Positions 25,017 through 32,869 of a stretch of DNA of 64,000 bases are shown one piece after another; position 1 is the stretch's first letter; every line of letters begins with the position of its first letter. A program made the translations under genes and the position numbers. Origin of the DNA: Burkholderiales bacterium (GTDB taxonomy: Bacteria > Pseudomonadota > Gammaproteobacteria > Burkholderiales > Burkholderiaceae_C). The stretch lies in assembly GCA_947453625.1 (NCBI GenBank), contig CANGHK010000007.1, positions 51,361 through 115,360 on the forward strand, given 5' to 3'. The notes under the pieces were generated by a model, which was not told the DNA's origin, did not search any database, and was given only the letters and a program-made list of their open reading frames with translations.

Positions 25017-25095
25017 GGGTTGATCCCGAGCCCGGGCGATCCGGACGACGGCGTTGCGCGCTTTACAGTGCTGCGCATCCCATCAAGGAGTTTCC

Positions 25096-26064
25096 ATGCA
25101 CCGCCGCACCCTGATCCTGCTGACCGCGGCCCTGACCGCCCTGGCGGCGCCTGCCGCATTCGCCCAATCCGACAAGCCCGCGCTGCGCATCCTGGTCGGC
25201 TTTCCGGCCGGCGGTTCGGCCGATGTCATCGCCCGCCTGCTGTCCGAGCGCCTGCCGGCCCAACTGGGCGGCCAGACGGTGATGGTCGACAACAAGCCCG
25301 GCGCGGCCGGCCGCATCGCGATCGAGGCGCTGAAGAACGCGCCGGCCGACGGCAACACCGTGGTCATCATGCCCAGCGGCCCGGTGGTGCTGTTCCCGCA
25401 TGTGTTCAAGAAACTGGGTTACGACCCGGTCAAGGACCTGGCGCCGATCAGCCAGCTGGCCGGCTTCCAGTTCGGCGTCGTCTCGGGCCCGAAGAGCAAT
25501 GTCAAGACCATGGCCGAGATGCTGGCCAAAGCCAAGGCCGACCCGTCCACCGCCACCTACGGCTCGTCGGGCAACGGCACGGTGCCGCACTTCCTCGGCC
25601 TGATGATCGGTGATGCGGCCGGCATCGATTTCCAGCATGTGCCCTACCAGGGCGGCGCCCCGGCGATGAACGCGCTGATGGGCGGCCATATCGGCTACAA
25701 CATCGACGTCATCACCGAGGCACTGGAGCAGCACAAGACCGGCAAGGTGCGCATCATCGCGGTGGCCGGTGCCCAGCGCGCGCCGCAGCTGCCCGACGTG
25801 CCCACGCTGCGCGAGCAGGGCGTGGCGATGGACGCCAGCGCCTGGTTCGCGATGTATGGCCCGGGCACGCTGCCGGCGGCCACCGCGCAGCGCCTGAGCG
25901 CGGCGGTGCAGGCGGCGATGAAGGACCCGGTGATGCAGGCCAGGCTCAGCGGCCTGGGGCTCGACACCATCGCTTCCACGCCGGATCAACTGGCCGCGGT
26001 ACAGCGCGTCGACTTCGCCAAATGGGCCAAGCCGGTCAAGGCCTCGGGCTTCCAGGCCGATTGA
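25096..26064 (+). CDS. Tripartite tricarboxylate transporter substrate-binding (TctC/Bug) family protein
   Basis: LRILVGFPAGGSADVIARLLSERLPAQLGGQTVMVDNKPGAAGRIA. Confidence 0.93.
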   Translation: MHRRTLILLTAALTALAAPAAFAQSDKPALRILVGFPAGGSADVIARLLSERLPAQLGGQTVMVDNKPGAAGRIAIEALKNAPADGNTVVIMPSGPVVLFPHVFKKLGYDPVKDLAPISQLAGFQFGVVSGPKSNVKTMAEMLAKAKADPSTATYGSSGNGTVPHFLGLMIGDAAGIDFQHVPYQGGAPAMNALMGGHIGYNIDVITEALEQHKTGKVRIIAVAGAQRAPQLPDVPTLREQGVAMDASAWFAMYGPGTLPAATAQRLSAAVQAAMKDPVMQARLSGLGLDTIASTPDQLAAVQRVDFAKWAKPVKASGFQAD

Positions 26065-27575: not shown

Positions 27576-28706
27576 CTAGACACAAAGTCCGAGCGCACGG
27601 CTTTGTGGGCTGCAGGCGCTGGGTTTTTGTGCGGCCGGGAGCTTGGTCTTGCAACTGGCCAGGCGCTCCTTCACTTTGTCGGAGTATTGCCACCCGGCCG
27701 CAACCGCTGGCAGGGGTGATCCAGGCTGCCAGGTCAGGGCACTCCATTTCTTGTGGCCCTGACTTTGCAGGCTGCTGAATTTTTCACAGAATGCATCAGC
27801 AAAATCCACGATGAACTTGTTCCGATTCGGATCGGAAAAGTTGGCCGTGATCAGATAGGAATCCACGGCCAGTGAAGCCAGCTCGGTGCCGGAAATATTG
27901 AGGCTTGGGTAGCTGGAACTCTTGATGTCTGCTTTCTGGTATTCCTGAAGGACTTTTCCGGCACTCGGCTGGGACGGATCGAACTTCAAGAGTTTGAGAT
28001 TGGCGGGCACATTCTTTTCAAGAATGCCCAGTGGTTGACCGCCAACCAGGACCATGACATCGATTTTTGGATAGTCTTTGTAGAACTGCGGGTCACTCAG
28101 TGCCATCAATGCCGAGCGGCGTCTCTTGGTGCCCTCATCATCGCCGGTGGCGGTGGAGTTTATAAACGGCTCGACAATATCGGGAGACTGCGCAAAAATC
28201 TTGCTGTAAATATTCAGTGCAGTCAAGTAAGTGCCGCTCTTCTCCATGTCCATCCATATCTTCTTGTCCTTCATTTGATGGATGAACTCCATCGGATCGT
28301 CCTTGCGCACAAGGAAATGAATCTCCTCCTTGTACAGTGGCATGAACACCCGCAGATTCACCAGTAGTTTTGCATACTCTTTCTGGGTATCGGCAGGAAC
28401 GGCTTTTGAATCACGCAGTCGCACGAAGGCCGCGTAGACATCGGATTGAACTATCGCCAGGCTCACCCCTTTCGTCTGGCTCATGTCTTCAACGTTAGCC
28501 CATGAACCCTTCGAATCCTTCACTTCCAGCGCGGGGTAAACGATGTCGCGCAGGTTGTTGCCGATGGCGTAATAGGTTCCGGTCTTGCCGCCGGTGACGA
28601 TGCTCTCGGCGCCGGCGCCGGCAGTTGGGGCGAGGGTGGCCGCGTAAACGCCGAAGAGCAGCGCCATCGAACAGCCGGGGTTTTTGGCGTATGATATTTT
28701 ATTCAT
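27576..28706 (-). CDS. TAXI-family TRAP-type solute-binding protein with Cys-containing C-terminal tail
   Basis: TGGKTGTYYAIGNNLRD...SLAIVQSDVYAAF typical of TAXI proteins; ends ACSPQSRALGLCV*. Confidence 0.85.
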   Translation of the reverse strand: MNKISYAKNPGCSMALLFGVYAATLAPTAGAGAESIVTGGKTGTYYAIGNNLRDIVYPALEVKDSKGSWANVEDMSQTKGVSLAIVQSDVYAAFVRLRDSKAVPADTQKEYAKLLVNLRVFMPLYKEEIHFLVRKDDPMEFIHQMKDKKIWMDMEKSGTYLTALNIYSKIFAQSPDIVEPFINSTATGDDEGTKRRRSALMALSDPQFYKDYPKIDVMVLVGGQPLGILEKNVPANLKLLKFDPSQPSAGKVLQEYQKADIKSSSYPSLNISGTELASLAVDSYLITANFSDPNRNKFIVDFADAFCEKFSSLQSQGHKKWSALTWQPGSPLPAVAAGWQYSDKVKERLASCKTKLPAAQKPSACSPQSRALGLCV

Positions 28707-28731
28707 TTGTAATCTCTGAAATTAAATGCCA

Positions 28732-29100
28732 TCAGCGACAGAGCCCAGCCTGCTTGTCGGCCGTCGAACAATCTCCGCTAGCCGACTTGGGAGTGGATTT
28801 TGATGGCGCCTCCTGCATGCCGGCTGATGATTCCTGGGGATGGTCAGCGTGTTTCTTGCCAGCCGAGATAAAGTACCACGAACCCGCCCCGCCGAGCGTC
28901 AAGAGCGCGATAAGCAATGCCATGATCGGCGCCTTCGAGCGGCCGGCGCCCGCGCCTTCGCTGTTGAGCAGGAGGGGTTTGAGGCATTCGCTGCAAACAA
29001 AGTCCATGCCAACGGAAACTTCGACAGTCCTGCGCGTGTCGGCAATGGTGCAGTTGCCAAAGTTGGAGCACTTGCCGGATCTTCCTGCGATCGATGCCAT
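28732..29100 (-). CDS. Small zinc-ribbon single-TM protein with Cys-containing C-terminal tail
   Basis: 122 aa; CSNFGNC..DFVCSECLKPL zinc-ribbon pattern, one TM segment (APIMALLIALLTLGGAGSWYF), ends DCSTADKQAGLCR*. Confidence 0.75.
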   Translation of the reverse strand: MASIAGRSGKCSNFGNCTIADTRRTVEVSVGMDFVCSECLKPLLLNSEGAGAGRSKAPIMALLIALLTLGGAGSWYFISAGKKHADHPQESSAGMQEAPSKSTPKSASGDCSTADKQAGLCR

Positions 29101-29168: not shown

Positions 29169-32100
29169 CTACTGTGCTGATTCGCCCCTCAGCAGGCTCG
29201 TCGCGCGCCTTCCAGCGTCAAGGAAGCGGCGGTAGATTTCATCCTGGATGTTGCCGCCACGCGCGGCCTTGACCGCTTCCACTTCGGCCAGAAGCATGCG
29301 CCGCAGATCGCTTCGGCGATCGAGGTGAACATACTCCGCACTCGCCAGCAGCCGTTCGCACAGCGCCTTGATCGTATGAAGGTTGCCGAGATCGATGCCT
29401 TCGGCACTTTCCATGAAACTCTTGCCCAGCAGGATCGGATCATTGTCGAAGCCGTCGGCATCCTTGGTCACCAACAGGACCTCTTCAATGCCTGTTGCCG
29501 GGTTCTTTCCTGCGTGAACGCAGCCCAGGACCTTGGCCAGCAATATATAAGGCAGTCCCTGATTTTTGACCTCGGCACTGGACGGGGCAAACAGGCGTGG
29601 CCAGGAATTGCCGTCGCCTTCCGTATGCAGTTCAAGCCGGGCTCGGGCGCCACCGATTTCAATTCGGCGTCGGTATTTTTCCTCCAGGAACTGGAGTGGC
29701 TTGAGGTAGCGCAGTGGGAACAGATTGGTGATCGACACCAGCGTGATTTCGCCTCGACGGTTGTCTGATTCGATGATTTCCACATCGCCGGTCCTGGCTT
29801 CGCGCAGCACCTCCCTGAGTGCCTTGGAAAACTCCGCATGCTCAGGCGCCCTGGGCAGGATGACGGTAAACTTGTTCACCGCCGTGGGAACGCCAACAGG
29901 GATACCGGGCGCGCTCCGGTTAATTTCAAGCGGATCGAAGGTGGTAAAATTTCCTGCACGGTTCACCAATTCACTTACGTAACTCTTCAATTCCTGTTTG
30001 TCGGCGCCGTAGCGATCGCGCAGCTTATCAATGATTGAAACCCCCAGCAATCGGTCCTTGGGATTTTGCACAAGGTTTTGATGCGCGATTCGCATGTTGT
30101 CCTCGCACACGGTTTCAACCACATCCAGGAAAGTTGACTCCGTGACGCGCTGGTTGAATTGCACGAAGCCTGAACTGGGTCCCATCTTTTCGACCAGGAC
30201 CGCACGTACCCGCGAGGTCTGTGTTTTTTGCTCGGCTTCGTCGATCACCAACCGACGGCTGATGCTCTTGACCTGCACCGGGTCGTAGAAGCGGATGAGA
30301 TGCTGTCGCAGATCGGCAGCCCCGTCGTCGGTAAGTCGCGCCTGGACGCCGACCTCGAATTTTTTCACTGCCTGCTGAAGTGTATTGGACGCACGATCCA
30401 CTTCAGCTTTCAAATCGGTGACCTCGGCGACGACCTCCATCAGCAGCGCTTTTGCAAACCCCCAACCCTCCGCCCGGGTCCGGTAAACGTACAACTCCTG
30501 CAGATGAACGCCGTGAGCGTCCAGCAGACTGTCGGGCTTTCCGAGCAGGTGCTTGGAGATCAAGCCCATGCCGGCCCATTTCTGGGCGTTTTCCAACACG
30601 CGGGCCTGCATTTCCTCCTCCGCACTGCGCGCCCGTGCGATGTTTTCGTCGCAGGCCTTCAAGCGCTCCTCAAGCGTCTCGGTCAAGGCGGCGAGCAGGC
30701 GTGAAATGTCCCAGGTCGACTTGGCGCCAAGCTTCCAGTCGTTGATCAACTCCTGATCGATGCGCCCGCGAATCTCGCACGCCATGTCCTTGCGTGCTTT
30801 CATCTTGGTGCGATAGAAGGTCGCGACCCCCAGGGTTCGGTAGTCGTCCTGGAACCGTTTCTCGCAAAGCTTGGTCAGTTCGTCCAACCAGGTAGGACGC
30901 GCACGCTCACGCACTAGCGACTTGAAATTTGGAATGACGGCTTCCCATTCGCCGACAAATGACTTCCATTTCTTGTTGGCGGCATCTTCGGGCAGCACAC
31001 CCAGGGCCAGGGTCAGGTGATCGTCCGACAAGAGCCAACGCAGCTGTGTCTCCTTCTGCCTGATGAACTCGTGAAAGTCCAGTTTGCGAGGCTCTTCGAT
31101 GAAGCCCGAAGCCTCCTGCCAGTGGTTGAAGCGCAGTTGCAGCGCCGCCTGACGTGCAAAGCTGTAGGTCAAGTACTCGCTGATTTCTTCTTCAGGAATC
31201 GCCAGGCGCTTGATGCCAAATGCCAGGAATCGCTTCGACCGCTCGGGGCTCCGGCCCTGCGGCGCGGTCTCGGGCGAGCCGTCGCCATTTTCGGCGTTTT
31301 CCATTCGCCCGAGTGATGCCCAGTTGACCTTGGTTGCCGCGACGATCTTCTGGTAGAGAAAATCTGCAACGATGCCCGGCAAATCCCGATCGACATCCAC
31401 CGTCAGGCCGTTCTCATTCTCGTTTCCGAAAACAAAACAGCCGTTGAACGGGTCGCTCAGCCTGAGCCGCTCCTTGACGCCGGTCACGTCATAAGGCTGA
31501 TAGGCGCCGATCGACATGGCATTGAGTTCGGTGAGGGCGGCAAAGCCGTTCGCATGATAGTTGCCGGTGTCCCAATTCGGATTTGGATAGGCGTCAGGCA
31601 GCAGCGCGTAGATGAGGATGCGAAAGCGCTTCGAATCGGGATAGAGATCGCGCAACTGCGCCACGGCGTCGACGACGCTGCCACTGCCGGTGCCGCCAGC
31701 CAGTCCGACGATGACATGGAAGGTGATTTCGGTCAGGCCGTTTTGCTGCAAGGCTTTGACTTGCGACTGCACTTGCTCCCGGTACTTGTCGGCCTTGCAG
31801 GCAAAAAGGAAGCGGCCGAGCCGGCGCTTTTGTCCTCCAAGGGTGGCGCCGACGATGCTGTTCAAGATGTCCCGCCACTCTTCCGGGCTGCCCAGCCAGT
31901 GTTTCAGACCCGGATAACTTTCCAGATTGTCCAGGCGCGAACTGAGGTTGGCGTCAGTGATCAGCAACTGGCTCGCTTTGGCCAATTGCACGGAAGTCCC
32001 GAGCGTCTTCCAACTGGGGTCATCGATCGACATCATTTCGTTGGATGAGTCGACGTACAGATAGCCGATGTCGGCCGCGGCGATTTTTTCGCCGTGAAAT

Positions 32101-32177
32101 TCTTGATACAAGGTCTTGCGCAGCGCGCGGATGATCTTGCCACCCGTTCCGCCCAGTCCGATGACGAGGTGGTTCAT
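29169..32177 (-). CDS. Tubulin/FtsZ-like GTPase (bacterial tubulin-like family), about 1000 aa
   Basis: N-terminal GLGGTGGKIIRALR and tubulin-signature-like GLAGGTGSGSVVDAV; start at 32177 with AGGGAG upstream. Confidence 0.82.
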   Translation of the reverse strand: MNHLVIGLGGTGGKIIRALRKTLYQEFHGEKIAAADIGYLYVDSSNEMMSIDDPSWKTLGTSVQLAKASQLLITDANLSSRLDNLESYPGLKHWLGSPEEWRDILNSIVGATLGGQKRRLGRFLFACKADKYREQVQSQVKALQQNGLTEITFHVIVGLAGGTGSGSVVDAVAQLRDLYPDSKRFRILIYALLPDAYPNPNWDTGNYHANGFAALTELNAMSIGAYQPYDVTGVKERLRLSDPFNGCFVFGNENENGLTVDVDRDLPGIVADFLYQKIVAATKVNWASLGRMENAENGDGSPETAPQGRSPERSKRFLAFGIKRLAIPEEEISEYLTYSFARQAALQLRFNHWQEASGFIEEPRKLDFHEFIRQKETQLRWLLSDDHLTLALGVLPEDAANKKWKSFVGEWEAVIPNFKSLVRERARPTWLDELTKLCEKRFQDDYRTLGVATFYRTKMKARKDMACEIRGRIDQELINDWKLGAKSTWDISRLLAALTETLEERLKACDENIARARSAEEEMQARVLENAQKWAGMGLISKHLLGKPDSLLDAHGVHLQELYVYRTRAEGWGFAKALLMEVVAEVTDLKAEVDRASNTLQQAVKKFEVGVQARLTDDGAADLRQHLIRFYDPVQVKSISRRLVIDEAEQKTQTSRVRAVLVEKMGPSSGFVQFNQRVTESTFLDVVETVCEDNMRIAHQNLVQNPKDRLLGVSIIDKLRDRYGADKQELKSYVSELVNRAGNFTTFDPLEINRSAPGIPVGVPTAVNKFTVILPRAPEHAEFSKALREVLREARTGDVEIIESDNRRGEITLVSITNLFPLRYLKPLQFLEEKYRRRIEIGGARARLELHTEGDGNSWPRLFAPSSAEVKNQGLPYILLAKVLGCVHAGKNPATGIEEVLLVTKDADGFDNDPILLGKSFMESAEGIDLGNLHTIKALCERLLASAEYVHLDRRSDLRRMLLAEVEAVKAARGGNIQDEIYRRFLDAGRRATSLLRGESAQ

Positions 32178-32869
32178 GCAGATAACTCCCTGTTTCAACC
32201 TGATTGGAAATATTCCTCAGCTTGCAGCCGCAGAATCCGCCGCAATCGACATTCACTGACTGGCGCGCGGCGGATCGGCGGTCACCAAACCACCATTCGC
32301 CCCGTCCGCGCCACTGGGTCGATGCGACTCTCCAATCGGATTCCCAAAAAATCGCCGAATCGATTTATCGACTGACACTGTGCCGTCACTGTTGGATACC
32401 CGTCGGTTAACACACTTTGCAGCTTATAAGTGATTTGCTGGATTGTGTCAAGTTCGATCTTGCTGCTTCTGGTCGTTCATGCATTTCGCGTATTTCACGC
32501 GGAGCGTTCGGCTTTACATGATGCCGCCAATAACCAGGGTGGGGCGCGAATCTGCCCGGTGGGGCTCGAGATCGCCGTGGTCCGGATCGCCGTCAGCGGC
32601 TTGATTCCTGCGAATCAGGCGCCTGGTCAGGACATGTCTGCCTGGGAGGTGGCGCTCGGCACCTCTTCTGCACGATCAATCGCCGTGGATCGGAGGCGGG
32701 AGGATCGCCTCGCCGCCGATGACCGGCTGAGCTGGCCCGCTCTCGAGACGAAAGCCGGACGGGGTCGGTTCTCCTGCCGGTCGTCTCGGGCCACATGGCC
32801 CATGGACAACAAACGCCGGGCCGGCCCAGGTGTTTCGCCTCGGGGGGACGGGCGCCGCGAGGCGCTGGC

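Follow-up and report, generated by a model that had tools for sequence, protein, structure and literature searches.

Paired two-cysteine C-terminal tails on a TAXI-type solute-binding protein and a neighbouring zinc-ribbon membrane protein: a putative docking tag encoded beside a bacterial tubulin-like gene

The analyzed window is a stretch of 64,000 nucleotides from a Burkholderiales bacterium, in which an operon on the minus strand comprises, in this order, the genes for FtsZl1, a zinc-ribbon transmembrane (TM) protein, and a TAXI protein. The first gene (29169..32198) encodes an FtsZ/tubulin-like protein of the FtsZl1 (Tubulin_2) family (PF13809, E 1.7e-75), with its start likely at 32177 (MNHLVIGLGGTGG). 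The Pfam match spans residues 11-351 of 1009, which corresponds to an N-terminal FtsZ-like domain with a long C-terminal extension, and a GLAGGTGSGS loop is present in the sequence. The three-gene order is common to nine related loci, whose FtsZl1 proteins are 80-84% identical to that of the window. In loci L021-L029, which include Candidatus Accumulibacter, the corresponding identities are about 70% for the TAXI protein and 45-50% for the zinc-ribbon partner. The much higher identity of FtsZl1 would mean either that the tubulin-like protein is very strongly constrained or that the operon was transferred recently. Downstream of the operon lies a plus-strand gene (25054-26064) for a solute-binding protein that we named by eye as TctC/Bug-type, a further kind of orphan receptor that is common in such bacteria. 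PADLOC gave no match.

The second gene (28732..29100) encodes a zinc-ribbon protein of 122 amino acids with a single TM segment. Its ribbon (C-x5-C ... C-x2-C; 28984..29070) is predicted to be cytosolic and to contain strands (pLDDT about 73), and the four ribbon cysteines (C11, C17, C36, and C39) are invariant in 10 orthologues, as are C111, S112, D115, G119, and C121 of the tail. No Pfam family exceeded its cut-off for the window protein; the homologues L090 and L078 pass DZR. A fold search with the AF2 model of the zinc-ribbon protein found no significant match. The predicted TM helix (28864..28932) corresponds to residues 57-79, which are helical in this model, and most homologues have a hydrophobic stretch after the ribbon. 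The topology is uncertain because the charge bias between the flanks of the helix is weak (2.1 vs 1.5 K/R); the stalk behind the helix is presumably periplasmic.

The third gene (27576..28706) encodes a TAXI-type periplasmic solute-binding protein of 376 amino acids with a signal peptide. It was assigned to the Pfam family NMT1_3 (PF16868) with 53.4 bits against a cut-off of 27 (E 3.8e-14), and the TAXI profile matches TAXI chains in the PDB, such as 4ddd and 1us4, down to E 5.7e-20. For the TIGR02122 (TRAP_TAXI) model the window protein scored 51 bits, below the cut-off of 84.35, and its homologue L094 scored 120 bits. For the TAXI protein, AF2 gave a model of low quality (mean pLDDT 38), which was left out of the fold search, although a helix was placed at residues 367-371. 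With the solute-binding proteins of TAXI-TRAP systems (BCSP31/TT1099 type) the window protein shares the NMT1_3/TAXI ligand-binding domain and the signal peptide. In contrast to them, it has no fused DctQM membrane subunit on its contig, and it carries a C-terminal extension with GHxKW and GWxY motifs, an extra pair of cysteines, and a Cx9C tail. The TAXI-TRAP systems have been described as always having fused DctQM (PMC5812351). We found six DctM genes in the genome, none of them on the contig with the TAXI gene. Since no TRAP permease gene lies on this contig, the TAXI protein would need another membrane partner.

The TAXI protein terminates in CSPQSRALGLCV, its ORF (28706..27576) closing with SACSPQSRALGLCV and a stop codon, and the zinc-ribbon protein terminates in CSTADKQAGLCR, its ORF (29100..28732) closing with GDCSTADKQAGLCR and a stop codon. 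The respective tails, C365-SPQSRALGL-C375-V (27579..27614) and C111-STADKQAGL-C121-R (28735..28770), both have the form C-S-x6-G-L-C-x, that is, Cx9C plus one further residue. The original prediction had described such shared tails on two otherwise unrelated neighbours, and it was right on both points, with both tails real and encoded on the minus strand at the positions it had given. We scanned the DNA of the whole home genome for the pattern C-x7-G-[LF]-C-x-stop and obtained five matches, two of which are the two tails; another two end in TGG rather than in a stop codon, and one falls in a short frame overlapped by longer frames. Among 47 ORFs of the window chosen by length, the TAXI ORF alone ends in Cx9C; this listing excludes the 122-residue zinc-ribbon ORF, which was displaced by a longer antisense frame. 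Proteome-wide statements made here are based on DNA pattern scans.

The TAXI tail is kept as C[SRK][PA]QDRxxGLC[RKS] in twelve related loci from Polaromonas, Accumulibacter, Ramlibacter, Caenimonas, and unnamed bins. All zinc-ribbon neighbours of the KCSNFGNC type among these loci keep a tail of the form CSx[AS]D...[AV]G[LV]C[RK]. Ramlibacter and Caenimonas have a different zinc ribbon and a different upstream gene, yet their tails are CSAAHQTAGLC and CSVAHEKAGLC plus four residues. Searching with profiles through the order, class, and family, and through plasmids, we widened the set to 58 loci with this TAXI subfamily. The Cx9C tail is present on the TAXI protein in 57 of them (39 distinct sequences) and on the neighbouring zinc-ribbon protein in 47 (34 distinct sequences). 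Of the eleven loci outside the latter count, one is masked (L137), two lie at contig edges (L163 and L115, the latter with an upstream fragment that shows CEPNRAALGLC), two have a TAXI tail and no zinc-ribbon neighbour (L030 and L077), and the rest are altered. For the L030 and L077 genomes, no unlinked zinc-ribbon partner was found among the matches examined, which are part of those listed. The altered group includes a Cx12C zinc-ribbon tail beside a Cx9C TAXI tail in L104, a replacement of the second cysteine by serine in L139, and the loss of the zinc-ribbon cysteine pair, with the TAXI cysteines kept, in four Burkholderiaceae loci (L088, L091, L095, and L097). In these four, the zinc-ribbon neighbour ends without cysteines, for example in EERAILESGW, and the glycine of the TAXI tail is lost as well (CTDAEKVLMLC), hinting at an altered docking mode. 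The reverse case is L078, where the zinc-ribbon tail is kept and the TAXI tail is lost. An even number of columns, four, is invariant for cysteine in the 57 aligned TAXI proteins, with body and tail contributing two each; the tail-less TAXI protein of L078 retains the two body cysteines.

The zinc-ribbon tail is retained on quite different bodies, including a single KCSNFGNC ribbon, another ribbon in Ramlibacter and Caenimonas, and double ribbons elsewhere. Two zinc-ribbon proteins, from L090 (7961-8734) and L153 (genome G1030, ORF ending in CEPNRAALGLCER), carry two Cx9C modules in a Pro/Ala-rich stalk.

Several specific forms of the motif, rather than every possible Cx9C tail, were scanned in wider sets of genomes. 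C-terminal copies were confined to this gene pair for the D-form motif (14 genomes) and for C-x5-[AIV]-L-G-L-C (33 genomes). The form C[ST]xA(h)xALGLC gave exactly two matches in 398 genomes, both in a zinc-ribbon gene beside a TAXI gene. The motif was found at no other protein C-terminus in the pattern-searched genomes. Further matches, such as a FabD-like CGPGKVLAGLC in L230 and frames in L197 and L199, were judged by eye to be internal, antisense, or non-coding. The motif is absent from all 21 tail-less TAXI relatives. The same is true of two FtsZl1 operons (Paraburkholderia PREW-6R and G311) that have zinc-ribbon TM proteins and no TAXI gene, and in which other C-terminal domains take the place of the tail; the tail therefore tracks TAXI rather than the tubulin gene. 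The tubulin gene is absent from most of the tail-bearing pairs, and conservation across the loci extends to no third gene. In several genera, the place of FtsZl1, upstream of the tail-bearing pair or close to it, is taken by a protein family of about 480-510 amino acids without a Pfam match (L031, 5890-7392; L032, 5893-7395; L030, 5514-7034, minus strand; and L164, upstream of the pair).

Neither a chance frequency of the pattern nor a lack of conservation in orthologues, the two objections that the original prediction had raised against itself, is borne out by the five home-genome matches and by the tails conserved in the sets of 12 and 58 loci. Its proposal that the shared tail ties both proteins to one pathway has good support from the conservation, the pair-specificity, and the contrast loci. 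We conclude that the two-cysteine tail, which dozens of related species have kept, is almost certainly a dedicated tag and that, judging from the sequences, its most likely use is to dock the two proteins to each other.

The TAXI tails follow the form C-[ST]-x-[QE]-[ED]-[RK]-[IV]-L-G-[LI]-C and the zinc-ribbon tails the form C-[STP]-x-A-[VLD]-[AE]-A-[LA]-G-L-C, and glycine is the commonest residue at position 9 in both. By analogy with known helix termini, we infer that position 2 together with position 5 may act as a helix capping box and that G9-L10 may form a helix-ending turn. In the AF2 model of the zinc-ribbon protein, a helix at residues 113-118 stops at G119 (block pLDDT 75). In a simple backbone sampling, a capped helix with glycine at position 9 reached disulfide range between C1 and C11 in 8.4% of the accepted samples, and an unbroken helix never did. 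Both tails could thus be copies of one tiny module, a Ser/Thr-capped helix of one to two turns with a Gly-Leu end, whose two cysteines would be joined by their own disulfide in the oxidising periplasm. The TAXI module would sit on a short linker at the end of the secreted ligand-binding domain, and the zinc-ribbon module at the distal tip of the flexible, Pro/Ala-rich stalk that follows the single membrane helix into the periplasm. By binding each other or the same site, the two knobs would hold the TAXI receptor at the membrane protein, so that the ligand state of TAXI could be relayed through the cytosolic zinc ribbon to a lineage-specific effector, which in this clade may be the tubulin-like GTPase FtsZl1. 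We lean, by a narrow balance, towards the reading in which matched disulfide-closed knobs dock the TAXI receptor to its zinc-ribbon membrane partner and signal to a variable effector. Its full form for this clade, in which a short disulfide-locked docking tag, unique to the pair within the proteome, connects a small-molecule receptor of the periplasm to a membrane adaptor controlling a tubulin-like cytoskeletal GTPase, is a tentative proposal that we regard as possible rather than probable.

A common third partner would also explain the matching sequences, if both tails bound a housekeeping component of the periplasm or envelope. Such a receptor fits the observation that either tail can persist without the other, as well as the absence of tail-tail covariation. 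In a partial Mantel test, tail-tail similarity showed no covariation once TAXI-body distance was accounted for (partial r 0.088, a value matched in 677 of 5000 permutations), and direct contact between the tails accordingly remains an inference. An association of L10I in the TAXI tail with G9A/S in the zinc-ribbon tail was discarded as confined to a single clade of the tree. However, none of the genes around the pair is a conserved candidate for this component, and a housekeeping receptor should serve other tagged proteins, of which the pattern scans found none; we consider this explanation unlikely.

The Cx9C spacing is identical to that of mitochondrial twin-Cx9C (CHCH) proteins, and the tails share the helical character of each CHCH arm. 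The two tails could accordingly be the halves of a split twin-Cx9C, antiparallel helices whose two interchain disulfides covalently join TAXI to the membrane protein, given that both are predicted to be helical and both are expected in the periplasm. Unlike CHCH, there is one arm per protein here, mostly with no second arm in the chain, and a glycine at position 9 breaks the helix. A covalent bridge is also at odds with the loci where one partner only has lost its cysteine pair (L078, L088, L091, L095, L097, and L139), with the unequal spacings in L104, and with the two copies in the zinc-ribbon proteins of L090 and L153 against one in TAXI. We hold it to be quite unlikely and favour an intrachain disulfide loop, because the cysteine pair can be lost in one partner and kept in the other and because the module is doubled in two zinc-ribbon proteins.

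A role in sorting, processing, or protection, as a surface anchor or as a disulfide cap that shields from C-terminal proteases, and unrelated to pairing, would suit the extreme C-terminal site of the tails, which are usually followed by 1-10 residues. In contrast to LPXTG, PEP-CTERM, and GlyGly-CTERM signals, they lack a hydrophobic helix with basic residues, the proteins ending 1-15 residues after the last cysteine, and they are confined to one gene pair and absent from tail-less TAXI relatives. Thus, among the roles named in the original prediction, the disulfide loop is favoured by the pairing of the cysteines and the geometry, docking would be the likeliest use, and the sorting tag, which we judge distinctly improbable, is disfavoured by its confinement to the pair and by the missing hydrophobic segment and basic cluster. 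A chance resemblance of two unrelated C-termini, conceivable for so short a motif in a single-genome view, is refuted by the conservation of both tails across dozens of loci and their exclusivity to the pair in the scans.

The preferred reading, docking of the TAXI receptor through matched disulfide-closed knobs, has a parallel in solute-binding proteins that stimulate membrane receptors, an accepted general mechanism (PMC9602780) exemplified by citrate-BctC with the sensor kinase BctE, where a solute-binding protein stimulates a transmembrane receptor (PMC5812351). In both cases the gene of an orphan periplasmic receptor neighbours that of a membrane protein possessing a cytosolic domain. The partner here differs in being a zinc-ribbon protein with no kinase, chemoreceptor, or cyclase domain, and a terminal tag is common to the pair. 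TAXI proteins, zinc ribbons, and FtsZl1 are individually known (PMC2875224, PMC9871819). A description of the TAXI/zinc-ribbon pair or of its tails was not found in the open-licence papers searched, which is weak evidence of absence. The two cysteines of each tail offer a small handle for probing the pair, and the tail signature separates orphan TAXI proteins with a probable signalling role from those serving TRAP permeases.

Although known since 2010, the FtsZl1 family has had no input assigned to it, and the pair provides a concrete candidate, a periplasmic ligand receptor with a membrane adaptor; if true, it would be a route from outside chemistry to the bacterial cytoskeleton. Makarova and Koonin (2010, PMC2875224) reported genes for a vWA protein, a protein kinase, or a GTPase in the majority of FtsZl1 (Tubulin_2) operons. 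The window operon likewise starts with FtsZl1 (PF13809) in a membrane-protein context, whereas here FtsZl1 is accompanied by a zinc-ribbon TM protein and a TAXI receptor. No vWA, kinase, or GTPase genes were seen among the conserved neighbours in the window and nine loci, where the neighbours were Pfam-scanned in part. An OmpA-like gene was recognized by eye in G311. An FtsZl1 operon without TAXI (L247, 3833-11263, minus strand) encodes, besides two zinc-ribbon TM proteins, one protein that is caspase-like and one that is OmpA-like, as named by eye, extending the FtsZl1 context reported in 2010.
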